This document shows, one piece after another, positions 4,172-63,772 of a stretch of DNA of 64,000 bases. Numbering within the stretch: the first letter of the stretch is position 1; every line of letters begins with the position of its first letter. Both the position numbers and the translations under genes were made by a program. This DNA comes from an uncultured bacterium (GTDB lineage: Bacteria; Bacteroidota; Bacteroidia; Bacteroidales; Bacteroidaceae), in contig CAMHUC010000001.1 of assembly GCA_946188155.1 (NCBI GenBank), positions 62,001-126,000 on the forward strand, read 5' to 3'. The notes beneath the pieces are model-generated. The model was given only the letters and a program-made list of their open reading frames with translations. It did not search any database and was not told the origin of the DNA.

Positions 4172-5532
4172 TTGATGGGTATTGTTAGTGTTACGGTGTA
4201 TGTATCTTGCTGGTCTTGGATGTCGAGCGTGTAGCGGTCGCCGTAGATGAGGTTCAGGCGCTGACGGACGTTGGCCAGTCCCACGCCGCCGTGCTTGTCC
4301 TCCTCCTTGGGTATCTTGCTGTTGCGGCAGGTGAAGGTGAGGTGACTGTTTGCAGTTGACGGTTTACTGTTTACAGTTGACGGTTTACTGTTTACGGTCA
4401 GCTCAATCTCGATGAATGACGGCTGTCGGTAGCTGACGCCGTGCTTGAAGGCGTTCTCTACGAATGTGATGAACATCAGCGGCGGCACCTCGTTGTTGGG
4501 CAGCGAGGGCGGCACTTCGACCTGTATTCGCACGCGGTCGGTGTAGCGCAGCTTCATCAGTGTGATATAGTTCTGCAGGAAGGCAATCTCGCGGTCGAGT
4601 GGCACGCCCTGCTTGTTGCCCTCGTAGAGTACGAAGCGCATCATCTTCGACAGTTCGAGGATGGTCTGCTTGGCCTTCTCGGGGTCGATGTCCACCAGGG
4701 CGTGGATGTTGTTGAGCGTGTTCATGAAGAAGTGTGGGTTGATCTGATACTTCAGGTACTCCAGCTGCTGTTCGAGGTTCTGCTTCTCGAGCTGCTGCAT
4801 CTTCAGACGGTCGCCACGCTGGCGGAAGTAGAGCTTCACGCCGAGGTTCATGCCCATCATGAGGATGAGGATGACGAGCGAGACGAGGTCGTGCTGGCCG
4901 AACATCAGTGGCGGGCGGAAGTCGCGGTCTCTGCGGCGGTCGCCGCCGGGGCCCCAGCGGCGGTCGGCGCCTCTGCGGAAGGGGCGGGGGCGGTAGTCGC
5001 GGGGGGTGTACTGGGCGATGGCGGTGCTGTCGCTCAGGGGAGAGGCTTCGGGGGGAGCCGGGGGGGCCGGGCTTTCCGGGTTTTCCGGGTTTTCCGGGCT
5101 TTCCGGGTTTTCCGGATATTCCGGGCTTTCCGGGTAGTCCGGGCGGGCGAAGCCGCTGTCGCTGGCGCGGGGCATGGGGGGGCGGCTGCCTTCGGGGCGC
5201 ATCTCCGTGCGATGCCGCCAGGCCTCCCGGAAGTTGGGGCGGTGGTTGGTCTGCCAGATATGGAAGATGACCATCAGTGCGATGCAGCCAGCGAAGTAGA
5301 GCCACTTGCGCTGACGGTAGATGAGCTGAGGAGCCATCAAGTGGTTGTGGATGAGGAACACGATGAAGAATGGCAGGAACTCCTTCCACACCATGAGCAC
5401 CTCGCTCCAGTTGAATGACTCGTTGCTGTTGGCTATACGCACGCTGAGACTGATCACCGGGGCTATGAACAGCATGGCCCATAGCCCCAGGTAGATCAGT
5501 GTCTCTTGCCGGTGTTCTTTCTTGAAACTCAC
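4168..5532 (-). CDS. LytS-type sensor histidine kinase
   Basis: 454 residues. Three membrane helices lie near 12-33, 45-66 and 78-95, and a fourth near 215-236. A Pro/Glu/Asn-rich linker (about 132-165) is built from PESPEN-type repeats encoded by a 9-bp DNA repeat. The His_kinase domain has the acceptor His267 in INPHFFMNTLNN, and the ATPase part has N-box Asn360 (ENAFKHG) and a G-box near 414-420 (KHGGVGLAN). An insertion of NSKPST repeats at about 381-397 is encoded by an imperfect tandem array (4345-4397) and sits inside the ATPase domain. It is co-translated with the LytTR regulator. Signal unknown. Confidence 0.93.
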   Translation of the reverse strand: MSFKKEHRQETLIYLGLWAMLFIAPVISLSVRIANSNESFNWSEVLMVWKEFLPFFIVFLIHNHLMAPQLIYRQRKWLYFAGCIALMVIFHIWQTNHRPNFREAWRHRTEMRPEGSRPPMPRASDSGFARPDYPESPEYPENPESPENPENPESPAPPAPPEASPLSDSTAIAQYTPRDYRPRPFRRGADRRWGPGGDRRRDRDFRPPLMFGQHDLVSLVILILMMGMNLGVKLYFRQRGDRLKMQQLEKQNLEQQLEYLKYQINPHFFMNTLNNIHALVDIDPEKAKQTILELSKMMRFVLYEGNKQGVPLDREIAFLQNYITLMKLRYTDRVRIQVEVPPSLPNNEVPPLMFITFVENAFKHGVSYRQPSFIEIELTVNSKPSTVNSKPSTANSHLTFTCRNSKIPKEEDKHGGVGLANVRQRLNLIYGDRYTLDIQDQQDTYTVTLTIPIK

Positions 5533-34734: not shown

Positions 34735-35112
34735 TTATCCTACATTCCTTTTTTGTTCAGGCAAAGCCGCCTCTAATTCCTTTATTCGATTTTTGTAGCC
34801 TGTTATCCTGTCTAACAGGGTTTCAACGGTGCTTTCTAACCGGGCTATTTCGGCATCTTCCGGGCTATCCAAGCCATCGGGCAAAGTACGCATATCACCA
34901 ATACCGCGCAACAGCCATTCAGCCGATACGTCGGTATGCTTATTCAGGATAAGCAGCAAAGTATCTACCGTTATTGCCGCCCCATCGTCAGCGAGTTGGC
35001 GGTTTAGACGTTTTTGGGTAGCCTTATCACCACCGGCAAAACTATTTTGGGTATAGCCAAATTCGGCTAAAACCGCTGAAATCCTTTGTCTTACGTCGTT
35101 TTCTGTTTGCAT
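34735..35112 (-). CDS. CI-like phage repressor (XRE-type HTH)
   Basis: 125 residues from the Met at 35112 (a Met at 35139 is also possible). The N-terminal half is an XRE-type HTH: VRQRISAVLAEFGYTQNSFA and VDTLLLILNKHTDVSAEWLL, the SAEWLLRG phrase being typical of Bacteroidetes phage repressors. The C-terminal half is a coiled coil (ESTVETLLDRITGYKNRIKEL) that could dimerise; there is no LexA-type peptidase domain, so release is not by self-cleavage. It faces the early genes across the operator region at 35143-35322. Confidence 0.85.
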   Translation of the reverse strand: MQTENDVRQRISAVLAEFGYTQNSFAGGDKATQKRLNRQLADDGAAITVDTLLLILNKHTDVSAEWLLRGIGDMRTLPDGLDSPEDAEIARLESTVETLLDRITGYKNRIKELEAALPEQKRNVG

Positions 35113-35149
35113 ACGCTTAGAGTGCAATTTGTTAAACAATGTTATAAGT

Positions 35150-35202: not shown

Positions 35203-35285
35203 CACCCGATATGAGTAAGTAACTAACTCAAAGCGGACATAAGAAAGGCTGTCGGACATCTAAGCCCAACTATCGTAAATAACTC

Positions 35286-35322: not shown

Positions 35323-35367
35323 GATATAAGTAAGTAAATAAGTAATTTTAACTAAAATTTGGCAGTT

Positions 35368-44393: not shown

Positions 44394-45580
44394 AATTCAA
44401 AGTAGACAGAAACAAACTTTTAGAGGCTATGCAGAAAGCAAGCCAAGCAATAACGGGCAAAAGCAGCCGTTTACTTAGCGAGATTTGCCGATGCTTTGTT
44501 TTCAAGGCAAGAAATGAAAGTCTAACCGTCATGGCTACCGACGGCGAGATTTTTATTAGTACATGGGTAGGCATCGAAAACACCGATGGCGATAAAGACT
44601 TTGCCCTGTACGCGCCTAAATTCCTGAAAGCCATTAAATCGGTAGACCCACAGGAACTAACGATAGAGGTTTTGGAGTATCAGGTTATTGTTACGCATGA
44701 GGTAGGCAGCTTTGCACTACCATTAACGGATATGAGCCAAGTACGCTACCCGGAAGCGGACAGCAAAACGGTATTGGACTACAGCCGCGTACACCGACAC
44801 ACCTTTGAGGCCCCCGGCTTGCTTTCCATCCTGAATAAGTGCAACTATGCAATGGCCGAAGATGAATTGCGCCCGGTGATGAACGGCGTAGTTATGAGCG
44901 TCAAAGAAACCCACACCGATTTTGTGGCATCCGACGGGTATAAGTTAGTACGCATCCGCAAAGCCTCAATTACTGACAGCCGCCCCGCAGACTTTATTTT
45001 TCCCAAAAAGGTAGTCAATATCCTGTTAAAGATATTGCCTAAGACGGGATTTGTAGATACGTGGTTTAATGAGTATGCAGTTGATTGGAAGAGCGAGGAA
45101 CACCCCGGAGAGCAAACGCCAAAGTCGGGCTGTCTTATGAGCGTTGAGGGTACGGAAATTCTGTTTAAGCCCATACCGGGCCGCTACCCGAATTACAACA
45201 ACGTAATACCCACTACGTTTACTAAGGAACTTATCATAGACCGCAAACAACTTTTGAAGTCGCTACAGCGTCTTAGCCAGTTCACAGCGAAAAGCGGGCT
45301 TATTAGATGGAATCTTAACCCTACCCGCCTGATGCTACAGGCCGAAGATACCGATTTTTCGGTAAATGGCAGCGAGACTTTGCCCTGTACGTACAAAGGT
45401 GAGGTTTGCCGGTTGGGATTTAAGGACTATTCGTTTGTTCAGACCCTACAGAATAGTACAGCACCCGAAATCGTAATGAAAGGCAGCGGAGTTACTACCG
45501 CGTTTATTATCGAGCCTATCCCACAGCCGGATAACGAAGAAGTGACTATGCTACTTATGCCAATGCTAATAAATGACTAA
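44390..45580 (+). CDS. Phage DNA polymerase sliding clamp (DnaN-like)
   Basis: 396 residues, beta-clamp fold of three similar domains: MKFKVDRNKLLEAMQKA at the start, RPVMNGVVMSVKETHTDFVASDGYKL, GRYPNYNNVIP, and a C-terminal EVTMLLMPMLIND matching the MPMR-type end of DnaN. It would replace or supplement the host clamp for the phage polymerase; a phage-encoded beta clamp beside a family A polymerase is an uncommon pairing. Confidence 0.88.
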   Translation: MKFKVDRNKLLEAMQKASQAITGKSSRLLSEICRCFVFKARNESLTVMATDGEIFISTWVGIENTDGDKDFALYAPKFLKAIKSVDPQELTIEVLEYQVIVTHEVGSFALPLTDMSQVRYPEADSKTVLDYSRVHRHTFEAPGLLSILNKCNYAMAEDELRPVMNGVVMSVKETHTDFVASDGYKLVRIRKASITDSRPADFIFPKKVVNILLKILPKTGFVDTWFNEYAVDWKSEEHPGEQTPKSGCLMSVEGTEILFKPIPGRYPNYNNVIPTTFTKELIIDRKQLLKSLQRLSQFTAKSGLIRWNLNPTRLMLQAEDTDFSVNGSETLPCTYKGEVCRLGFKDYSFVQTLQNSTAPEIVMKGSGVTTAFIIEPIPQPDNEEVTMLLMPMLIND

Positions 45581-45741: not shown

Positions 45742-48337
45742 TAGCGATATGGAATATATAGATTTTCTACGTTCAAAAATGGCTATCAGCAGCCAAGACG
45801 GATTTGAGATTAGTGAGAGCGAACTCACACCCACACTATACCCGCACGTCAAAGATACGGTACGATGGGCGGTACGCGGAGGTTGCCGCGCTATCTTTAG
45901 CAGTTTCGGTATGCAAAAGACCGTATCACAACTGGAGATACTACGTATTATCACCGTCCACAAAGGCGGCAAGGCACTTGTAATTTGCCCGAAACGCGTT
46001 ATTGTGGAGTTTACGACGCAGGCCAAAAAGCACCTCAATATGAATATTGCCTACGTCCGCAATATGGCAGAGGTAGAGAAAGCAGCGGGAGAGTACGACG
46101 TGATGGTTACTAACTACGAGCGCGTCAGAGACGGCGAGGACGGCGTTAGGATTAACCCCGCCTACTTTATTGCTACGTCACTTGACGAGGCAAGTTGTCT
46201 ACGTGATTACGGCTCAAAGACCTATCAGGAGTTTTTAGCCCTGTTTGCCAACACTCCTTATAAGTTTGTAGCCACCGCCACGCCGTCACCTAACAACTAC
46301 GTGGAAATGATACAATATGCCGGGTATTTGGGTATCATGGACACAGGCCAGGCAATACAGCGTTTCTTTAAGCGCGACCAGACTAAAGTAAACAACCTGA
46401 CTTTGTACCCGCACAAGGTAGATGAGTTTTGGACGTGGGTTAGTACGTGGGCGTTGTTCCTGACCAAGCCGAGCGATTTAGGCTATGAAGATGTAGGCTA
46501 CGAGTTGCCGCCGCTTAACGTCTATCAGGAAGTGGTAGCCGCCGACAACTCCACAGCCGGGGCAGAGGCAGACGGGCAGAAGAAACTATTCCGTGACGCG
46601 GCTATAGGACTGAAAGACGCGGCCAAGGAACGCCGCGACAGCATCCCGGCAAAGGTAGAAAGAATAGTAGAGATACTTAACCGCCCGGAGAACGTAAACG
46701 ACCATTTCATTATTTGGCACGATTTGGAGGCAGAGCGCGAGGCCATTTGCAAGGCCGTTGATGGCTGCAAAGCCGTTTACGGTAGTCAGCCGGACGATGA
46801 GGCCGACAAGATAATAGACGATTTCAAGGAGGGCCGGTTAAAGTACCTTGCAGCCAAACCCGTAATGTTGGGCGAGGGCCTGAATTTCCAATACCATTGC
46901 CACAAGGCCATAATACTTGTATCTTATAAGTTCAACGACGGCGTGCAGGCAATAGCCCGCATATATCGTTTTATGCAGAAATACCCGGTAGATTTGTACA
47001 TAGTCTATGCCGACAGCGAACAGGAGATTTACAAGTCGTTTATGGCTAAGTGGGCCAACCACAAGGAAATGGTAGAGCGCATGACCGATATTGTACGCAA
47101 GAACGGATTAGCCACTACCAACGCCACGGAGAAACTAAAGCGTTATTTCTTCTCGCAGCGTCAGGAGAAACGCGGGCAGCTTTGGCGGGCTATCAATAAC
47201 GACAACGTATTAGAGTGCCAGACGATGCCGGATAATTCGGTAGGGCTTATCGTTACGTCTATCCCGTTCAGTAATCAGTACGAATACACGCCGTCTTACA
47301 ACGATTTCGGGCACAACGAAGATAACAGCAAGTTCTTTGAACAGATGGACTACTTAACGCCCGAATTGCTTAGAATCCTACAGCCCGGGCGTATCTTAGC
47401 CGTACATGTCAAAGACCGCGTAGTCAGCGGCTTTGTTTCGGGTGCAGGATTTCAGACCGTCGTACCGTTCAGCGACTTGTCGGTATTGCACTATATCAAA
47501 CACGGATTTCAGTACGGCGGGCGCATTACGATTGATACCGACGTAGTGCAGGAAAATAACAAGTCGTACCGATTGGGCTATACTGAAATGTGCAAGGACG
47601 GCAGTAAGATGTCGGTTGGTTGCCCCGAATATATCCTGATATTCCGCAAAGTACCGTCAGACCGTAGCAACGCCTACGCCGACGTACCCGTAGTAAAGAA
47701 TAAGAGCGAATACTCATTGGCACGATGGCAGATAGACGCGCACGGCGATTGGAAGTCAAGCGGTGACCGCCTGTTAGACTACGAGGACGTTAAGAACATG
47801 AACTTAGAGGGCATACGCGCCTATTTCCACAAGTTCAGCAAAGAACACCTGTATAACTACGAAGCCCACGTAGCGTTTGCCGAGGGATTGGAAAAGGCAA
47901 AACGTCTATCCAAGCAGGATATGATAGTAGCCCCGGCGAGCCACAGCGATATGATATGGGATTTGTCGGAGTACCAACGCGCCAAAACGCTTAACAGCAA
48001 GCAGGCACGGGGTAATAAGATGGTGCATATTTGCCCGCTACCCATCGACTTAGTAAACCGCTGCATCGAGCGTTGGAGTAACAAAGGCGACGTAGTGTTT
48101 GACCCGTTCGGAGGCATCCAGACCGTACCCTATTGCGCCGTACTGAAAGGCCGCAAGGGACTTAGCACGGAACTTAACCCGGACTATTGGCGAGACGGCA
48201 CGGCCTACCTGATGGACGCAGAGAGAGAGGTATCTACGCCTACGCTGTTTGACCTTTGGGCTAACGGCGGCTTAGAGGAATACAAAGCCGCTGAAGCCAA
48301 GAAAACGAAGCGAACCAAAAAGGCTACTGCAAAATGA
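45719..48337 (+). CDS. SNF2-like helicase fused to a DNA methyltransferase
   Basis: 872 residues. The N-terminal half is SNF2-like: a degenerate Walker A (IFSSFGMQKTVSQLE, near 62), a DExx-like LDEAS, TATPSPNN and a helicase C-terminal segment (VMLGEGLNFQYHCHKAIILV, IARIYR). The C-terminal half is an amino-methyltransferase: motif IV near 512 as TSIPF instead of the usual S/D-PP-Y/F, and motif I near 794 (VFDPFGGIQTVPYCAVLKGR, ELNPDYW). It may methylate adenine or N4-cytosine in phage DNA while moving along it; the altered motif IV leaves activity uncertain. A separate canonical SNF2 protein is encoded at 51835. Confidence 0.85.
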   Translation: MEVYEKDNSDMEYIDFLRSKMAISSQDGFEISESELTPTLYPHVKDTVRWAVRGGCRAIFSSFGMQKTVSQLEILRIITVHKGGKALVICPKRVIVEFTTQAKKHLNMNIAYVRNMAEVEKAAGEYDVMVTNYERVRDGEDGVRINPAYFIATSLDEASCLRDYGSKTYQEFLALFANTPYKFVATATPSPNNYVEMIQYAGYLGIMDTGQAIQRFFKRDQTKVNNLTLYPHKVDEFWTWVSTWALFLTKPSDLGYEDVGYELPPLNVYQEVVAADNSTAGAEADGQKKLFRDAAIGLKDAAKERRDSIPAKVERIVEILNRPENVNDHFIIWHDLEAEREAICKAVDGCKAVYGSQPDDEADKIIDDFKEGRLKYLAAKPVMLGEGLNFQYHCHKAIILVSYKFNDGVQAIARIYRFMQKYPVDLYIVYADSEQEIYKSFMAKWANHKEMVERMTDIVRKNGLATTNATEKLKRYFFSQRQEKRGQLWRAINNDNVLECQTMPDNSVGLIVTSIPFSNQYEYTPSYNDFGHNEDNSKFFEQMDYLTPELLRILQPGRILAVHVKDRVVSGFVSGAGFQTVVPFSDLSVLHYIKHGFQYGGRITIDTDVVQENNKSYRLGYTEMCKDGSKMSVGCPEYILIFRKVPSDRSNAYADVPVVKNKSEYSLARWQIDAHGDWKSSGDRLLDYEDVKNMNLEGIRAYFHKFSKEHLYNYEAHVAFAEGLEKAKRLSKQDMIVAPASHSDMIWDLSEYQRAKTLNSKQARGNKMVHICPLPIDLVNRCIERWSNKGDVVFDPFGGIQTVPYCAVLKGRKGLSTELNPDYWRDGTAYLMDAEREVSTPTLFDLWANGGLEEYKAAEAKKTKRTKKATAK

Positions 48338-48394
48338 GAAAGATAGATATTAACCGCCGTTATAGGAGTTGCGCAATATATTGCGTAACGATAG

Positions 48395-48496
48395 GCCGTT
48401 TCAGAGACACAGCAATACAAGATGTTGGGTAACGGTTGGACGGTTGAGGTTATTAAGCACATACTTTCATTTTTACCCGATGAACTTAAAAAGTAA
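48395..48496 (+). pseudogene. C-terminal remnant of a C5-cytosine methyltransferase
   Basis: After a TAG at 48392-48394, one frame reads VSETQQYKMLGNGWTVEVIK and on to LSFLPDELKK then stop. That is the conserved C-terminal end of Dcm-type C5 methyltransferases (VSxTQRYKxLGNGxTV). Nothing of the catalytic domain precedes it, so the bulk of the gene has been lost, apparently replaced by the upstream fusion gene. Confidence 0.65.
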
Positions 48497-55486: not shown

Positions 55487-55861
55487 ATGAAGAAAATATA
55501 TATTAGTGGCCCCATGAGCCATTTAGAGAGAGAAGAGTATTTGGCACGTTTCGCAAAGGCCGAGATACTACTAAGCGAAAGAGGCTACCGGGTAGTAAAT
55601 CCTACTAAGTTCCTGTTTTGCCGTTGGCCGTGGCTTTACAAGTTAGTTGGCTATAATGCCGCGTTGTGCTACGACCTTTGGCGGCTTTCGCGTTGTGAAT
55701 ACATCTACCTTTTGCCTGATTGGAAAGAGAGCCGGGGCGCAACCGTTGAAAGTTTCTTTGCATGGAAGATTGGCGTTTACCGCCTGACTGAAAAGGAGCG
55801 CAAAGAAATAGACCTGAAATTAGCCAAGTGGATAGACAAACGGGAATCTAAGCGAGTATGA
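55487..55861 (+). CDS. DUF4406 nucleoside deoxyribosyltransferase-like protein
   Basis: 124 residues from the ATG at 55487. DUF4406 family, related to nucleoside 2-deoxyribosyltransferases: KIYISGPMSHLEREEYLARF, GYRVVNPTKF, YLLPDWKESRGATVE. In phages it may act on nucleotide pools or DNA modification. Overlaps the large terminase gene by 4 bp. Confidence 0.75.
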   Translation: MKKIYISGPMSHLEREEYLARFAKAEILLSERGYRVVNPTKFLFCRWPWLYKLVGYNAALCYDLWRLSRCEYIYLLPDWKESRGATVESFFAWKIGVYRLTEKERKEIDLKLAKWIDKRESKRV

Positions 55862-57603
55862 CAGAGGAAGAGAAGATAAGGAAACGGCAGCTTAAAGCCG
55901 ACACAGCGGCAGAACTACAGGCTAACCGCGATAGTTACCTGACTAAGTACCGTTATGCGCTTTCAGATACCGACAAACGCCTTACAGAGTATGTAACGGC
56001 GGTAATCGACAACCCGGAGGCGCATAACCTGTACGAGTTATTGAAGATAAAGCGTTTTTTCCAAATGCTCGATAGATGGGATTGGAGGCCGAAGCGGGTA
56101 AAGAAGAAAATACGCCTGTACGAGAGTTTGAAGTTTAGCGGAACGTCAGGGCGCAGACGCTACCGCCTAACCACCGTGCAAGTCTTTCAGATGGCTAATA
56201 TTTTCGGCTTTGCCCGGCCCGATGGCCGTAGGCTTATCCGGGTAGTCTATATTTTTGTACCGCGAAAGTTCAGTAAAACGACCTTTGCGGCGTTTTTGGC
56301 CGTTGACGATATGCTGTTTGGTGATTATAACGCGGAAGCCTACGTAGGGGCCAACGCCTACGACCAGGCGAAAAAATGCTTTAACGAGATACGCCTAATT
56401 ATGTTCGACTTAGACCCCCGGCAAAAGCATTTCAAGATTAACCGCGAAACGGTGACGTTCAAAGACCACGCAAGGGAGAGTTTGGCGCAATGCCTTACGT
56501 CCAATGCACAGACCAAAGACGGCCTGTTTGCATCGTTGGCCATAATAGACGAATATTCACAGGCAAGAGACACGGCCAACAAGAGCGGCGCAGACCTAAA
56601 GAATACGCTTACATCGTCTATGGGGCCGCGTCGTAATCCGCTAACGGTGGTTATCACTACTGCAAGCGACGTGATAGACGGGCCTTGCTATAACGAACTG
56701 GAGGGCGTTAAAAAGGTGCTGGAGGGCGAGAGCGAAAACGACTATATGTTTGCCGACTTGTTTATGCCTGACGTTGACGATTGGGAGGGCGACCCGCAGA
56801 CGTGGGCCAAGGTGCAGCCCCATTTAGGCGTAACCATTCAGTCCGACTACTACGAAATAGAGTGGGCCAACGCCCAACTATCAGCCGAAAATATGTTGGT
56901 TTTTCGTACCAAGTTGCTTAACATCTTTACCATCAACGAAGTTAAGACGTGGTTTAGCCTTGAAGATGCTACCGCCCTGATGGGCGACTTTGATATAGAC
57001 CATGTAACCGGGCATCCTGAATGTGCCGTAGCCTTTGACCTATCCGTGCATGATGATTTCAGCGCAGTAACCTATACCGTCTACAGCAAGAAAACTAAGA
57101 AGTTCTACAGCCACACAGACTACTATTTTCCCATTGGCGCGTTAAAGGGGCATCCCAACGCAGAATTATATAAGATATGGCACGAGGCGGGCCACCTGAT
57201 ATTTACCAAGGGCAAGCGCATAGACGTTAGACGGATTGCCGACGATATACTACGGCGTACTAAGTTGGTTAAGATTATCCGTATAGGCTACGACGGCTAC
57301 AAGGCAAAGGACTTAGTAAACATCTTAGCCACCGCCGGGGCCACCGGCGTACTGATACCCTACGGCCAGACTTATGGCAATTTCAATCTACCCGTAGAAT
57401 CGTTTGAAATGCTTGCTTATGACGAACCGCCTAAGATTGTGTTTAACAACAACCCTATTAACGTCTATTGCCTGACTAATTGTGTGATAGACGAAGACAG
57501 GTTGGAAAACAAAAAGCCAATGAAGATTTCGCAGTACCGCAAAATAGACGGTACAATTACTATGCTTATGACGTTAGGGCAGCTTTATTCGTTTGAGAGG
57601 TGA
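55858..57603 (+). CDS. Phage terminase large subunit
   Basis: 581 residues. Walker A-like FVPRKFSKTTFAAFL (near 132), Walker B ASLAIIDEYSQ (near 230), coupling motif VVITTASD, and a nuclease domain with VAFDLSVHDDFSAVT (near 391). It packages DNA using ATP and cuts the concatemer. The portal would normally follow, but an island of about 4.9 kb is inserted first. Confidence 0.9.
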   Translation: MTEEEKIRKRQLKADTAAELQANRDSYLTKYRYALSDTDKRLTEYVTAVIDNPEAHNLYELLKIKRFFQMLDRWDWRPKRVKKKIRLYESLKFSGTSGRRRYRLTTVQVFQMANIFGFARPDGRRLIRVVYIFVPRKFSKTTFAAFLAVDDMLFGDYNAEAYVGANAYDQAKKCFNEIRLIMFDLDPRQKHFKINRETVTFKDHARESLAQCLTSNAQTKDGLFASLAIIDEYSQARDTANKSGADLKNTLTSSMGPRRNPLTVVITTASDVIDGPCYNELEGVKKVLEGESENDYMFADLFMPDVDDWEGDPQTWAKVQPHLGVTIQSDYYEIEWANAQLSAENMLVFRTKLLNIFTINEVKTWFSLEDATALMGDFDIDHVTGHPECAVAFDLSVHDDFSAVTYTVYSKKTKKFYSHTDYYFPIGALKGHPNAELYKIWHEAGHLIFTKGKRIDVRRIADDILRRTKLVKIIRIGYDGYKAKDLVNILATAGATGVLIPYGQTYGNFNLPVESFEMLAYDEPPKIVFNNNPINVYCLTNCVIDEDRLENKKPMKISQYRKIDGTITMLMTLGQLYSFER

Positions 57604-58572: not shown

Positions 58573-58623
58573 GGCCGCTTTATTGTTAAATAGGTATAAG
58601 TAAGTAACTTTTTAAGGAAATTA

Positions 58624-58655
58624 TTTGGATAATCTAAGTAAAATCCTTAATTTTG
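58624..58655 (+). promoter_or_regulatory. Phage promoter for the paralogous small genes
   Basis: TTTG (58624-58627), 20 bp, TAATTTTG (58648-58655), then GCACCCGA. TATAAGTAAGTAACTTTTT lies at 58595-58613, 29 bp start to start before the TTTG, exactly as at 60285. Confidence 0.8.
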
Positions 58656-58684
58656 CACCCGAACATCAGAATCTTAGAATCAGT

Positions 58685-58912: not shown

Positions 58913-59137
58913 ATGTGCAGAATATCATTAGAGACAGTGAGAAGAGCCAACGAGCGCACTATCAGGCGTTTGTCAGCAGGCGGGAATTTACCCAGTCGGC
59001 GGTTGGGTGATGACATTGTCGTTTCCACCCGCTATAACGGTAAGATTTTCGAGCAGAGAATACCGATGGAGAAAATAAACAGGGCTTTTGCCCACGCACA
59101 GCGGATTGCAGACAGCAAATATGGCAAAAGACTATAA
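58913..59137 (+). CDS. small phage protein, paralogue B
   Basis: 74 residues: MCRISLETVRRANERTIRRL, GDDIVVSTRYNGKIFEQRIP, EKINRAFAHAQRIADSKYGK. Paralogue of 58685; the tandem pair overlaps a membrane protein gene by 17 bp. Function unknown. Confidence 0.7.
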   Translation: MCRISLETVRRANERTIRRLSAGGNLPSRRLGDDIVVSTRYNGKIFEQRIPMEKINRAFAHAQRIADSKYGKRL

Positions 59138-59711
59138 TAACATATACAGGCTGTTGGTAAAAGACAAAAGCGATACGATAGGGCGTATCGCTTATTCGTT
59201 GTATAAGGAAGAGAAGATAGTTTGGATAAGAGCGTTCAGGGCTAAAGAGGGAAGAAAGCCGACAGACGATGAGGTGGAGAAACTGTTTCACGAGCCTCAC
59301 CGCCAAAAGGATTGCTTAGACAGATACAGGCTACACGCTGAGAGCATCCTGCAGGAGTTTACCGACGCGGCATTGGAGGAAACCACTACACAGATAGAGG
59401 CCGAATGTTACGGGAAGATAGATGAAAGGTTGAATGTGGCGTTAGCGTCATTCTCAAATCAGTGGCCCCGGCAGGAAAGCCTTGTGGCCCGATATGGTCA
59501 CGGCATAGCACAAAGCATTTTGGCCGCGATAATCCTTGCTGTTGTCATTTGGCTTTTGATTGCCGTAGTTGGCAAGTTCTCTATAGGCGACTTGCAAATA
59601 GAGTTCAAGAAGAAAGAACCGCAGACGGAGCAGGTGCAGAAACAGCCACAGAAGCATATACCAGAGTTCAGGCCCGCCCCAAAGCAGAATAACAGCAGCC
59701 GCCCCGAGTGA
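59121..59711 (+). CDS. single-span membrane protein with helical N-domain
   Basis: 196 residues from the ATG at 59121. An N-terminal helical domain (YNNIYRLLVKDKSDTIGRIA; HEPHRQKDCLDRYRLHAES), one membrane helix (SILAAIILAVVIWLLIAVV) and a charged C-terminal tail. It may be an inner-membrane exclusion or signalling protein, but this is only from its layout. Its stop lies inside the terminator hairpin. Confidence 0.65.
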   Translation: MAKDYNNIYRLLVKDKSDTIGRIAYSLYKEEKIVWIRAFRAKEGRKPTDDEVEKLFHEPHRQKDCLDRYRLHAESILQEFTDAALEETTTQIEAECYGKIDERLNVALASFSNQWPRQESLVARYGHGIAQSILAAIILAVVIWLLIAVVGKFSIGDLQIEFKKKEPQTEQVQKQPQKHIPEFRPAPKQNNSSRPE

Positions 59712-59725
59712 GGCGGCTGTTTGCG
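59696..59725 (+). terminator. Intrinsic terminator overlapping the stop codon
   Basis: CAGCCGCC (59696-59703) pairs with GGCGGCTG (59712-59719), followed by TTTGCGTT. The preceding gene's stop (59709-59711) is in the loop. Confidence 0.7.
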
Positions 59726-59773
59726 TTATTTGCGTACTGTCTTTCATCTTGCTTCACTTTATTTCATTTTTCG

Positions 59774-59804
59774 TTTGTACTTTGGTTATATTTTCGTATC
59801 TTTG
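59774..59804 (+). promoter_or_regulatory. Promoter for a 34-residue membrane peptide
   Basis: TTTG (59774-59777), 19 bp, TATCTTTG (59797-59804). The ATG at 59809 is only 4 bp after the box, so the mRNA would be leaderless or nearly so. Confidence 0.7.
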
Positions 59805-59808
59805 CGGC

Positions 59809-59913
59809 ATGAAAGCAAAGCAGTCAAAGTGGCCTGCCTTTGGTTGGCGGGAGGTAATTATTATCGTAGTGAGCGTAACCCTTAGTCAGATTGTACTGCA
59901 CTTTATCCGATAA
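59809..59913 (+). CDS. 34-residue single-span membrane peptide
   Basis: 34 residues with a basic start (MKAKQSKWPAFGWRE) and one hydrophobic segment (VIIIVVSVTLSQIVLHFIR). It has its own promoter and sits between a terminator and a convergent gene, whose 3' end overlaps by 11 bp. This is the layout of small toxic or regulatory membrane peptides; function unknown. Confidence 0.5.
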   Translation: MKAKQSKWPAFGWREVIIIVVSVTLSQIVLHFIR

Positions 59914-60229
59914 GCAGTCCGACAATGGCAGAGAGGGCGACACTGAGCACTACCAGGAGAATGTCGGCAAGCGTTTTCCTGATTTTCTCTTTGTGCTCAT
60001 TATCTTCCGCGCCCTGATACCCGCCTTTGTCGTAGAAGTCACGCCCGGCGGCTGTCATGCGTAAGTTACGCGGCCACCCGTCCAGATATTTGTCGGCGAC
60101 AAGCGAGGCCACGATGCCGAGTGTCCGATTGTCGGTAATCTGTATCGGCTTGTTACGGTAGGCCAGTTCCAGTATTTCGTCTTTCTGCTTTGCCGTATAT
60201 TTGCCCTTTTTCTTCATAAATAGTGCCAT
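59903..60229 (-). CDS. winged-helix-like protein with C-terminal membrane span
   Basis: 108 residues (a start at 60217 would give 104). The N-terminal part looks like a winged helix (TAKQKDEILELAYRNKPIQI, RNLRMTAAGRDFYDK); the end is a membrane helix (LADILLVVLSVALSAIVGLLIG). A minus-strand TAATTTTG box (60237-60244) precedes it. Possibly a membrane-tethered regulator. Confidence 0.55.
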   Translation of the reverse strand: MALFMKKKGKYTAKQKDEILELAYRNKPIQITDNRTLGIVASLVADKYLDGWPRNLRMTAAGRDFYDKGGYQGAEDNEHKEKIRKTLADILLVVLSVALSAIVGLLIG

Positions 60230-60284
60230 TTCCGGGCAAAATTACAAAAAAATGGTATAAGTAAGTAACTTTTTCCCGAAAAAA

Positions 60285-60316
60285 TTTGGTAGTTTTGGGT
60301 AAAAACCGTAATTTTG
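60285..60316 (+). promoter_or_regulatory. Phage promoter for the rha leader
   Basis: TTTG (60285-60288), 20 bp, TAATTTTG (60309-60316). TATAAGTAAGTAACTTTTT at 60256-60274 lies 29 bp start to start before the TTTG. Confidence 0.8.
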
Positions 60317-60319
60317 CGG

Positions 60320-60543
60320 CGTTCAACAATCAGATGGGCGGGCGATGAAGAGCCTGCCGGCACAGACGAGCAGGCTGTTTTTATGTCCTGACTTGCGGTA
60401 GCTACGTAACATAGATTACGGCTGTCTAACCCCGTGTGGAGCGTTAATGCGCCCACAGCCCATCTGAGGTGTTGAACGACGGGAAGTGGACAGCCGTATT
60501 TAATTTGTCCTGTTACGCCAAATACGTTCAATATTCAGATGGC
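60320..60543 (+). ncRNA. Candidate c4-like antisense RNA leader of rha
   Basis: The leader of about 220 nt holds three related elements. A (60320-60339) at the RNA 5' end and A' (60525-60542) spanning the rha start codon are similar copies. B (60458-60478) is complementary to both: 19 bp with A, and 18 bp including two G-U and one bulge with A'. B lies in the loop of a perfect 10-bp stem (60417-60426 with 60489-60498) followed by TTTAATTTG. The stem-loop with exposed antisense element, and two targets of which one covers a start codon, is the arrangement of P1/P7 c4 RNA and its antirepressor target. Function is inferred. Confidence 0.6.
60351..60383 (+). terminator. Terminator-like hairpin early in the rha leader
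   Basis: AGCCTGC (60351-60357) pairs with GCAGGCT (60370-60376), followed by GTTTTTA. If used, it would release an RNA of about 64 nt containing only element A. Confidence 0.6.
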
Positions 60544-61528
60544 GACACAGACTTTAGAAAATCCTGTCATTCAGGTCAGCGGCACGGCTACGGTAGAGCC
60601 GAGCGTTGAGGTGGCTAACCTTTGCGAAATAAAGGACGGCCAGGTAGTAACAACATCATTGCGCGTTGCGGAGATTTTCAGCAAGGAGCACAATCATGTT
60701 TTACGAGCAATCCGGGAGTTGGATTGCAGCGACGATTTCCGAGCGTCCAATTTTGGACAGTCGTTTAGAATCAGGCAGTTACCCAACGGAATGGGTGAAC
60801 GCCAAGACCCCTACTATTTGATTACCCGCGACGGCTTTGTATTCCTTGTGATGGGCTTTACGGGCAAGACCGCCGCGAAGTTCAAGGAGGCGTATATCAG
60901 AGCCTTTAACGTGATGGAAGAGCGTTTGCGCCGTATGCAGAGCAGCCCGCAGTACACGATGGCCGATGCGCCCCGCCTGGTGCATGAGCATCTGGAGCGC
61001 ATGGAGGCCGAGGAGCAGCCGATAGTGGAGAGCTACGGACAGCAGCGTGTCGTATCGACCGTGACGCTTGCACGGCTTACCGGGCGAAAGCATGAGAACA
61101 TTTGCGCCAGCGTGCGCCGCATGTTCAAGCACACCCTACGACCCGCCCGTCTCTTCATCCGCACCGGGCGCACCGTGCGCCGTGGTTTCGGACGCGGCTA
61201 CGACAGCGAGGGCGTGCAGTACCTTATCACGATTGAGGGTTTTCGCGTGATGTGTACCCATGCCGAGGGATTGAGTGAGGACGTGCAGAAACTCGTAATG
61301 TCGGAGTTCTACAAGGCCAAGGGCAAGAACCGTCCCGGACAGCCCAACCCCTCAACGCCCAAGATGCCGCCCACGCCACCCGACGAAGAGCCGACGGCCA
61401 CCGCAGCGGGGCCGACGATGCCCAAGGACGCAGCCGACATGATGCGCCGGATGGTGCAGGCTATGGCCGCGCTGATGGGCGTAGATGTAAACGAGGTGTC
61501 TAACTTAATCAGCGGAGGGCGTAAGTGA
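60539..61528 (+). CDS. Rha-family phage regulatory protein
   Basis: 329 residues. The N-terminal third is a Rha domain (TTSLRVAEIFSKEHNHVLRAI, YYLITRDGFVFLVMGFTGKT, AFNVMEERLRRM). A second DNA-binding-like region follows (STVTLARLTGRKHENICASV, QYLITIEGFRVMCTHAEGL), then a Pro-rich linker and a helical tail. Rha and related proteins act as phage antirepressors or lytic-growth regulators. The start codon lies within leader element A', so translation may be RNA-controlled. Confidence 0.8.
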   Translation: MATQTLENPVIQVSGTATVEPSVEVANLCEIKDGQVVTTSLRVAEIFSKEHNHVLRAIRELDCSDDFRASNFGQSFRIRQLPNGMGERQDPYYLITRDGFVFLVMGFTGKTAAKFKEAYIRAFNVMEERLRRMQSSPQYTMADAPRLVHEHLERMEAEEQPIVESYGQQRVVSTVTLARLTGRKHENICASVRRMFKHTLRPARLFIRTGRTVRRGFGRGYDSEGVQYLITIEGFRVMCTHAEGLSEDVQKLVMSEFYKAKGKNRPGQPNPSTPKMPPTPPDEEPTATAAGPTMPKDAADMMRRMVQAMAALMGVDVNEVSNLISGGRK

Positions 61529-61815
61529 TGGAGAAAGATATGTTTGCAGGTGTGCAGCTCATGGCCGTAAAGCCGGAAGAGCAGAAGCGTGAGAAAGTAA
61601 TTGTGATGCAGCAGAAGAAAGGCAATGTACCCGCCTACGACCCGCAGGCCCTGAAAGATGCACTGGAGGCACTACGCGACTTTGTGGCCTTTGACATGGC
61701 CGCAGAATTGAGTACCGAGGCGACCATAACGGCATGGCGGCTATCGTCGGAACTGATGCCGCTTGACTATCTGATACGCGAAGTTGAATTTAAGGAAGTG
61801 GAGGTGTTGGTATGA
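61525..61815 (+). CDS. small phage protein, paralogue of the next gene
   Basis: 96 residues (NVPAYDPQALKDALEALRDF; ELMPLDYLIREVEFKE). It shares a PxY-QAL/T-DA-x-x-R core and a helical end with the following 88-residue protein. Overlaps rha by 4 bp. Unknown function. Confidence 0.65.
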   Translation: MMEKDMFAGVQLMAVKPEEQKREKVIVMQQKKGNVPAYDPQALKDALEALRDFVAFDMAAELSTEATITAWRLSSELMPLDYLIREVEFKEVEVLV

Positions 61816-62078
61816 GACAGACGGTAATAGAAATCAGAGACCGCGACGGCGTTATGCCCTATAGCGCACAGACGCTTACCGATGCCGTCAGGGGAACGCG
61901 CGAGTATCTCCGCCACCTGCTGAGTACCTACCCCGCCGACATGCCGTTGGTGGACGCGCTGGAGCGCGACGAACAGTTGAGCCTACGCAGCACGGCCAAG
62001 GCCTTTGAGCCGCTCAACTGGCTGTTAGAGGATGCCGTTATTACCGACCGCATAGAGGAGAAAGGAGGTGAGGCATGA
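61812..62078 (+). CDS. small phage protein, paralogue of the previous gene
   Basis: 88 residues (DGVMPYSAQTLTDAVRGTRE; AFEPLNWLLEDAVIT). Similar layout to the preceding 96-residue protein; both begin with 4-bp overlaps, so the block is co-translated with rha. Confidence 0.65.
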   Translation: MRQTVIEIRDRDGVMPYSAQTLTDAVRGTREYLRHLLSTYPADMPLVDALERDEQLSLRSTAKAFEPLNWLLEDAVITDRIEEKGGEA

Positions 62079-62456: not shown

Positions 62457-62487
62457 TTTGAACGCCCGTAAAATAGGTGTATCTTTG
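62457..62487 (+). promoter_or_regulatory. Promoter for the portal/head genes
   Basis: TTTG (62457-62460), 19 bp, TATCTTTG (62480-62487), 20 nt before the portal ATG at 62507. Confidence 0.75.
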
Positions 62488-62506
62488 CGGAAAACAACTT
62501 GCAAAG

Positions 62507-63772
62507 ATGAGGTTCTTTCCAGGTATATTTGGCCGCAAGCACCAACGCGAGGCCGCGACTGACACCACACCGACACAGGCCGATACCGGCGCGAAAAACG
62601 TCGTGGAAACGTCTGTTGTCGGTGTTTCCACGTCGCTTATCCGAATCAAGGGCGACGATGCTTTGAAAGTCATGGCCTACAAACGCGCCTTGAACATCTT
62701 AGCCGGGAGCGTAGCCCGATTGCCGCTACGCTACATGAAGCAGAAAGATGGTATCTACGTGGACTTTGAGGCCAGCCCCTTGCACTACCTGTTAGGCACA
62801 CAGCCGCAAAGCCGGTTATCTGCCTACTATTGGAAATATCAGTTAGTTTGGCAGGCTTTCCACGACGGCGACGCTTACGTATGGCCCCGTATCATTGACG
62901 GCGAGGTAGTGGAATTGGTGCTATTGAACCGCCACACTTGCAGTCTCGACGATACCAACGGCACGTACTACGTGAGCGACGAATATAACGGCGTTTACGG
63001 TACGTTCAAGGAAAGCGAGATACTGCATATATTCTTTAACAGCCACAACGGGCGCAGAGGTACGCCGCTTTGGAAAGAGGGCAACCGCGCCCTTAATATC
63101 ATGGCCACCGGCGACAACGAGACCCTTAACCGCTTTGTCAACGGCGGCAACGTCAGGGGCTTTATTACCAACGACAAATCGGTAGTGGGCTTTGGCGAGT
63201 ATGCCGACGAACAATTAGAGCAGTTGGCGCAGAGCGTAAGAGACGATTTCCGTAACGGCGTAGGCATTACGAGCCTACCCGGACAGGCGCAGTTTCAGCA
63301 ACTTTCGCTATCGTCTACCGATATGCAGTTTTTGGAAACGCGCAAGTTTGCCGTATTGGAGATTTCCCGCCTTACGGGTGTACCGCCCATCTACCTGTTT
63401 GATATGGTAGGCGGTAACTACAAGATACCCGAACAGGCCGACACCGCTTTCCTGACACAGACACTTGACGGCATTTTGTTGGCTATAGAATCGGAGTTTA
63501 ACCGCAAGTTGGTGAGCCGTTCAATGTGTTGCAAACGTACATTCAGTTTTGACCGCAAACGGTTATTCTCTATGGACTTGCTTTCAATGGCTAACTATGA
63601 AAGCAAGATGATACAAAACGGCACATTCAGCATTAACGACGTGCGCCGTATGGAGAATCAGCCACCCGTAGAGGGAGGCGATACTATCTACCTAAGTACG
63701 AACACCGCCGTAATGGGTAGCAGTAAGATGACAGGCGAGAAAGAAGATAATAACGATAATAACCAAAAATAG
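62507..63772 (+). CDS. HK97-type portal protein
   Basis: 421 residues from the ATG at 62507 (an upstream GTG lies in the promoter). Portal signatures: VARLPLRYMKQKDGIYVDFE, HYLLGTQPQSRLSAYYWKYQ, LEISRLTGVPPIYLFDMVGG, AFLTQTLDGILLAIESEFNR. It forms the dodecameric DNA channel at one vertex of the head and receives DNA from the terminase. Confidence 0.92.
   Translation: MRFFPGIFGRKHQREAATDTTPTQADTGAKNVVETSVVGVSTSLIRIKGDDALKVMAYKRALNILAGSVARLPLRYMKQKDGIYVDFEASPLHYLLGTQPQSRLSAYYWKYQLVWQAFHDGDAYVWPRIIDGEVVELVLLNRHTCSLDDTNGTYYVSDEYNGVYGTFKESEILHIFFNSHNGRRGTPLWKEGNRALNIMATGDNETLNRFVNGGNVRGFITNDKSVVGFGEYADEQLEQLAQSVRDDFRNGVGITSLPGQAQFQQLSLSSTDMQFLETRKFAVLEISRLTGVPPIYLFDMVGGNYKIPEQADTAFLTQTLDGILLAIESEFNRKLVSRSMCCKRTFSFDRKRLFSMDLLSMANYESKMIQNGTFSINDVRRMENQPPVEGGDTIYLSTNTAVMGSSKMTGEKEDNNDNNQK

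Follow-up and report, generated by a model that had tools for sequence, protein, structure and literature searches.

C4 RNAs have been described from Proteobacteria and their phages, according to PMC2864571 and PMC5320573. In the record of P1 phage, the a1/b1 sites are located at 48255-48276, the c4 RNA at 48343-48419, and the a2/b2 sites at 48423-48459, followed by icd from position 48470, with icd and ant both placed behind c4. The P1 C4 RNA acts in trans, as stated in PMC8546580. A second system of this kind is IsrK (Rfam RF01394) from the Salmonella prophage Gifsy-1, presented in PMC4825925 as a short, terminator-ended 5′ RNA complementary to the downstream part of the read-through mRNA, by which a small ORF and an antirepressor are controlled. 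In that work, IsrK was shown to activate anrP translation in trans, and the processed downstream RNA was named STnc1160. Termination of the type exerted by P4 CI was raised as a possibility by the authors, and one experiment failed to support it; extra STnc1160 in Salmonella made the IsrK-driven growth arrest more pronounced, not less, which argues against simple attenuation in Salmonella. Nowhere does the main text of PMC4825925 use the term C4 RNA. The paper also describes the CI RNA of satellite phage P4 with seqA and seqC, an antisense RNA that pairs on both sides of itself and leads to premature termination. The P4 CI RNA blocks replication genes, and its likeness to the leader studied here is one of description only.

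We compared with these systems the leader of the rha gene in the window, that is, the whole stretch of 64,000 nucleotides that was analysed. This gene (60539..61528, + strand) encodes a protein of 329 aa for which the first-pass annotation of this DNA had proposed a Rha-family regulator, an assignment borne out by matches to PF09669 (E 3.1e-30) and TIGR02681. Genes for a terminase large subunit (55858-57603) and a portal protein (62477-63772) were found on either side of the leader region, which for this reason resembles a prophage, and the window also has an HU-HIG gene. The parts of the leader are the following:

60256..60268, + strand: candidate operator motif TATAAGTAAGTAA, 13 bp, just 5′ of the promoter, of putative function
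60285..60316, + strand: predicted promoter of the Bacteroidota type, read from the sequence, with TTTG at 60285-60288, 20 bases, and TAATTTTG at 60309-60316
60320..60339, + strand: tag (a1/b1 position), complementary to the guide over 19 bp, where the transcript is predicted to begin
60337..60358, + strand: hairpin A, candidate antiterminator, GGCGGGC at 60337-60343 and GCCTGCC at 60352-60358
60351..60382, + strand: terminator-like hairpin AGCCTGC/GCAGGCT, arms at 60351-60357/60370-60376, and T5 at 60378-60382
60417..60498, + strand: C4-like RNA core, with outer stem P1 (60417-60428/60487-60498) and inner stem (60431-60435/60479-60483), then the T-rich TTTAATTT
60436..60456, + strand: hairpin P2 of the core, two-sided changes in 5 of 8 pairs in 46 sequences
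60457..60478, + strand: guide, the antisense element, its left half in the loop of the small hairpin P3 (b′ position)
60525..60542, + strand: target (a2/b2 position), near-copy of the tag across the rha start codon (60539)

The order of these parts (a1/b1, structured RNA, a2/b2, gene) is identical to that of P1 c4 (RF01695; targets RF03163, c4-a1b1), with one complementary site upstream and another where the controlled gene begins. Comparison by eye with the C4 alignment revealed that the fold is also common to both: outer stem P1 closes the structure, in the rha leader around an inner stem of 5 bp and the two hairpins P2 and P3, b′ lies in the P3 loop, and a′, represented here by the single-stranded right half of the guide, precedes the 3′ strand of P1. 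In addition, both have an operator or operator-like motif upstream, and the icd and ant genes of P1 find their parallel in the antirepressor-type genes behind leaders of this kind, predicted to belong to the same transcript. On the other hand, the rha leader differs from P1 c4 in its core sequence, its Bacteroidota-type promoter, and the position of the target on the start codon, and it presents a T-run past stem P1 where RNase P is given for P1 phage in PMC5320573. The first-pass annotation had named the Rfam C4 models as a check on its c4-like reading; RF01695 gave 68.8 bits on P1 phage and did not match the window (E<=5), the core (E<=10), or 8 related loci (E<=10). Rfam scans of the window, core, and relatives returned chance-level matches only. 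In the reverse test, none of four P1-type loci scored above 9.5 bits with our covariance model R1, and that best match overlapped only the 3′ part of C4. A search for RF01695 in 198 genomes of the phylum gave no match, and neither did its 14 controls, so this search shows nothing. Altogether, order and fold of the proposed c4-like layout stood and the Rfam match did not; the reading is supported overall, with the rha leader as a C4-like variant rather than a member, since the Rfam C4 model fails to match it. Among the literature matches listed, none describes an RNA of this kind from Bacteroidota, and an unnamed entry in supplementary motif lists is possible.

Relatives of the leader were collected until 44 distinct guides, including that of the window, were available from 42 sources. 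Viral contigs contributed Rha relatives at 7 loci, the stretches picked up by two pattern scans for the conserved P2 hairpin (28 in one and 51 in the other, with L057, L065, L068, L069, L073, and L077 left out of the 51 as coding or chance matches), and 3 stretches from a scan with a pattern of the divergent type; genome searches with model R1 supplied others. This model matched 10 of 395 genomes of a phylum sample at E<=0.01, three of them strongly (66-87 bits: the genome of the window itself, G238, and G245 twice); the other seven matches, at about 20 bits, were rejected by eye as not being such leaders. The genome of the window holds one true copy, a second R1 match of 17.7 bits being no such leader by eye. 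In a class sample, 3 of 395 genomes were matched at E<=0.001, and one of these matches (L084, 24 bits) is a diverged leader in which tag, guide, and target suit each other by eye. A Prevotella strain (Prevotella sp. OH937_COT-195, L011) encodes a Rha protein 70% identical to that of the window, with the same leader type in front; together with the promoter type and the HU-HIG gene, this points to Bacteroidota. L006, L082, and L083 have a second type of core (CCGTGTCGGGTAGTG...), which shares the layout and was missed by model R1.

Several contigs or genomes contain more than one leader copy with differing guides (L017, L019, L020, L079, L082/L083, and L043/L051). When four such copy pairs were tested, cross-pairing was far weaker than own pairing in three, L082/L083 being the exception. 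The copies of L079 at 2432-2516 and 4893-4977 differ in their guides, much else being near identical by eye.

Covariation in homologous leaders, on which the first-pass annotation had made its reading depend, was observed at both levels, as tag, guide, and target change together and the core stems covary. Of 44 guides, 39 paired best with their own tag (22 of 23 in the first set), with mean energies of -32.0 kcal/mol for own and -16.9 kcal/mol for other tags, a result equalled in 0 of 10,000 permutations. The five remaining guides were those of L014 and L017, near-identical to another, of L012, with a long loop, and of the divergent-type L082 and L083. A Watson-Crick run of at least 7 was found at the own start codon for 38 of 44 guides, compared with 64 of 1,892 swapped pairs, and none of 10,000 permutations came up to the own sums; this test favours own pairs, because the start codon was picked partly by guide fit. 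The target test was run without L038 and L063, for which the contig has no start codon, and with duplicates merged. A cleaner test at the own start region gave such runs at 21 of 23 loci, compared with 15 of 506 swapped pairs; 18 of its start codons were taken from ORFs, and those of L008, L019, L020, L031, and L033 were chosen manually with knowledge of the target. A whole-region duplex test, in which the own downstream region was the best for only 6 of 23 guides, was replaced by the start-codon-limited one, since the 145-base stretch that it covers offers many chance partners. In several loci the target starts at the ATG (MLNT, MTNT, MSST, MHST, and MLYT), and codons 2-3 therefore track the guide. 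Short complementary runs are common, which would speak for chance complementarity; this reading is refuted by the permutations for the tag and likewise for the target, and we assign it a practically negligible probability. The change of the guide in step with two complementary sites makes a C4-type antisense RNA likely.

The three elements change much faster than their surroundings. Between the window and L004, differing columns amounted to 27 of 61 in the elements, 4 of 163 in the other leader positions, and 11 of 164 in the rha start. The corresponding values were 31 of 61, 22 of 164, and 15 of 165 for L008, and 27 of 65, 45 of 166, and 38 of 159 for L007. At the level of these alignments, a simple exchange of modules would not explain how three short elements change between near-constant bases in L004. 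Strong selection on specificity may stand behind this fast change.

The structure of the core was examined in an alignment of 46 model matches, in which 99.5% of cells were paired and 7 of 16 pairs presented two-sided change; this alignment was fitted to the model and therefore leans toward the structure. Cells with two-sided change numbered 34 vs 5.0 in shuffles, and slid structures were paired in 38-52%. Outer stem P1, with 26 distinct versions recognised by the parser, was too variable for the model. At least 5 T among the 8 bases past this stem were counted in 39 of 44 loci, with a parser that misreads the divergent type, and because of this T-run a separate terminator-like end is probable for the core.

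Together, tag and guide make up an inverted repeat of 20 bases, which might also be read as a feature of the DNA, either an invertible promoter or operator sites for a protein. Invertible promoters are used by Bacteroidota. We rejected this reading, and consider it very improbable, in view of the single orientation of the segment relative to the gene in the leaders compared (by eye), of the strong differences between elements where the phage flanks are near identical, and of the covariation of stems P2 and P3 as RNA pairs.

By its resemblance to the consensus, we take the TTTG/TAATTTTG pair to be a putative promoter of the Bacteroidota type. This predicted promoter ends at 60316, so the tag would lie at the 5′ end of the transcript; a TTTG ended 3-5 nt 5′ of the tag in 43 of 44 leaders. 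The computed guide:tag duplex of the window has 19 bp, a 2/1 internal loop, and an energy of -32.3 kcal/mol, and the pairing of the guide with the rha start region reaches -24.4 kcal/mol. Both pairings had been described in the first-pass annotation, the former with the transcript 5′ end and the latter with a near-copy at the rha start codon, and its coordinates were correct; the terminator-like hairpin beyond the first copy was likewise recovered, with its arms and T5. In a control with 3,000 random 25-mers of the window, the mean was -10.3 and the best value -27.7 kcal/mol, so the guide:tag pairing beats every one of them. The fold of the leader was better than 200 of 200 shuffles (z -5.4). 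The element had also been placed in the loop of a perfect 10-bp stem: the stem is indeed perfect (60417-60426/60489-60498) and grows to 12 bp with one G-U, but the minimum free energy fold of the whole leader pairs the guide to the tag in cis instead of holding it in the stem. Two folds would therefore compete.

This cis pairing, together with the location of the three elements on a single predicted transcript, is what would be expected from a switch within the mRNA alone, in which the tag:guide pairing exposes the rha start, or the guide hides it, with no free antisense RNA involved. The T-runs past stem P1 point instead to a 3′ end proper to the core, the divergence of guides between copies of one genome would not be needed for pairing in cis, and both P1 C4 and IsrK act in trans according to PMC8546580 and PMC4825925. 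We thus regard a purely cis-acting switch as improbable and favour C4-type antisense control.

Behind the tag we recognised a chain of elements that might link the antisense RNA to transcription termination. In the window, hairpin A has its 5′ arm built partly from the last 3 tag bases, and its 3′ arm shares bases with the 5′ arm of the terminator; across loci, 2-5 tag bases are taken, and the overlap with the terminator-like 5′ arm was of at least 3 bases in 21 of 24 loci analysed with the parser (23 plus P1 phage), a later hairpin having been picked in the other three. Shuffles as good as hairpin A of the window were 0 of 500 in one run and 3 of 300 in another. A terminator was recognised by the parser in every leader except L082 (43 of 44). 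In 34 of these 43, hairpin A beat 95% of shuffles of the tag end and spacer (p<=0.05), and in nine (L012, L024, L030, L031, L042, L043, L067, L078, and L083) it was unsupported. The same shuffle test was passed by 4 of 5 P1-type leaders (P1, D6, SJ46, and ECO95), P7 standing at 0.073. Among 30 distinct leaders of other C4 loci in viral contigs, 23 had a terminator, and 16 of these 23 passed; the 35 loci behind these leaders (L086-L120) all match Rfam C4. Since the loci are related, combined p-values overstate their independence.

In the equilibrium ensemble of the window, the terminator arm had a probability of 0.80 with the tag free and 0.80 with the tag blocked. Blocking the tag in 23 leaders (22 plus P1 phage) raised the terminator arm by at least 0.10 in 11, produced less or no rise in 9, and lowered it in 3. 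With an effect that is mixed at equilibrium and absent in the window, attenuation would need co-transcriptional timing. Furthermore, transcription reaches the guide only after the tag and terminator, from which we infer that only the guide of earlier transcripts could act on the tag. In the plasmids pT181 and pIP501, pairing of an antisense RNA to the leader frees a terminator, and that RNA is transcribed from the opposite strand; the likeness lies in antisense-driven attenuation, with the difference that the guide of rha is part of the leader itself, on the same strand.

The short RNA ending at this terminator would be the positional counterpart of Salmonella IsrK. Rfam isrK was found directly 5′ of C4 in 5 of 35 C4 loci (L086, L089, L098, L107, and L113), and IsrK thus seems to represent the 5′ tag RNA produced by a C4 locus; positions 59000-62000 of the window gave no match to isrK (RF01394) at E<=5. 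The 5′ RNA of the rha leader has, by sequence and fold only, the terminator end and the complementarity to the downstream leader, whereas for IsrK an effect, activation in trans, was measured, as reported in PMC4825925. An RNA acting solely as an IsrK-like activator is therefore another reading to be weighed: the terminated tag RNA would open the read-through mRNA in trans, and the core would be an inhibitory part of that mRNA, with a guide that exerts no attenuation. The isrK-C4 neighbourhood, the activation of anrP translation in trans by IsrK (PMC4825925), the terminators of 43 of 44 leaders, and the indifference of the window's terminator to its tag are all consistent with it. However, a plain terminator would not need the tag-hairpin A-terminator chain that beats shuffles in 34 of 43 leaders, and the core has a terminator-like end of its own. 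We consider activation of this kind alone possible, and clearly less probable than C4-type antisense control.

The genes behind the leaders were surveyed in a protein-family scan that took in 67 of 85 first or second ORFs. An antirepressor-type gene was first at 6 loci and second at 3. Rha was found behind the leaders of the window, L004, L006, and L007, AntA behind L030, and P22_AR_N as the second gene behind L027. KilA-N was the first gene behind L078 and the second behind L018 and L079, and KilA-N/ANT also occurred among relatives. In many relatives, small ORFs of no known family follow the leader. A SymE_toxin gene (PF08845) lies behind both L043 and L051, which belong to one genome and have differing guides, so that the same RNA could possibly be used there as an antitoxin. 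In the SymE/SymR type I toxin-antitoxin system, SymR is encoded on the strand opposite SymE, whereas in L043 and L051 the antisense element is within the leader. In a further SymE relative (L085), no leader of this kind was present in the stretch that was read, and the model gave no match. The occurrence of the leader before other genes and the antiterminator/terminator chain are additions beyond the first-pass annotation.

Motif TATAAGTAAGTAA was found in the window as exact copies at 60256-60268, 58595-58607, and 35325-35337, with one mismatch at 35210-35222, and with two mismatches at 44939; 0 of 100 shuffles reached these five matches at two or fewer mismatches. In Rha relatives, TATAAGTAAGTAA is also present 5′ of rha, in either orientation. 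The copies at 35.2-35.3 kb lie between an ORF that looks repressor-like by eye (34735-35139, - strand) and rightward ORFs; this ORF had no Pfam, NCBIfam, or PDB match above the cut-off. We infer that TATAAGTAAGTAA may be an asymmetric prophage operator, in parallel with the C1 operator at P1 c4. A copy of the rha promoter block, 78% identical, was seen at 58588-58656, before another operon and with the TATAAGTAAGTAA copy at 58595, and a third, weaker copy is present on contig C3 of the same genome.

Altogether, these data make it quite probable that the rha leader exerts C4-type antisense control, which would keep rha off. Transcription would start at the tag, and those transcripts that pass the terminator-like hairpin would yield the core RNA, released probably at the T-run past stem P1 or otherwise by cleavage. 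The freed guide could then pair in trans with the start region of rha mRNA, blocking its translation, and with the tag of new transcripts; the latter pairing would use up the 5′ arm of hairpin A, so that the terminator would be favoured. The terminated short 5′ RNAs might in turn soak up the guide, much as IsrK is reported to bind the read-through mRNA in Salmonella, and the balance between tag RNA and guide RNA would thereby set rha on or off. The likely purpose would be to keep an antirepressor-like product of the prophage in check, with a specificity proper to each phage, and a role in the choice between lysis and lysogeny, as suggested in the first-pass annotation, may follow.

A more general proposal, plausible but which we hold only tentatively, is that a circuit of three RNAs (tag RNA, guide RNA, and target) is common to phages of Bacteroidota and Proteobacteria, the guide breaking a tag-based antiterminator, blocking translation, and being soaked up by the terminated tag RNA. 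If true, this circuit would unite P1 C4, Salmonella IsrK, and the Bacteroidota leaders in one scheme and would explain the role of the 'putative' a1/b1 sites of P1 phage; the three-part element would then be a fast-changing immunity barcode, also placed before SymE-type genes. The tag-antiterminator-terminator chain, present too at P1-type and other C4 loci, suggests a role for a1/b1 and links C4 with IsrK. From their sequences, the leaders appear to form a distinct, covarying, C4-like family in phages and genomes of apparent Bacteroidota, unmatched by Rfam where tested. Their three-part barcode, which between the window and L004 changes far faster than its surroundings, would make the immunity groups of the phages of this phylum readable from sequence.
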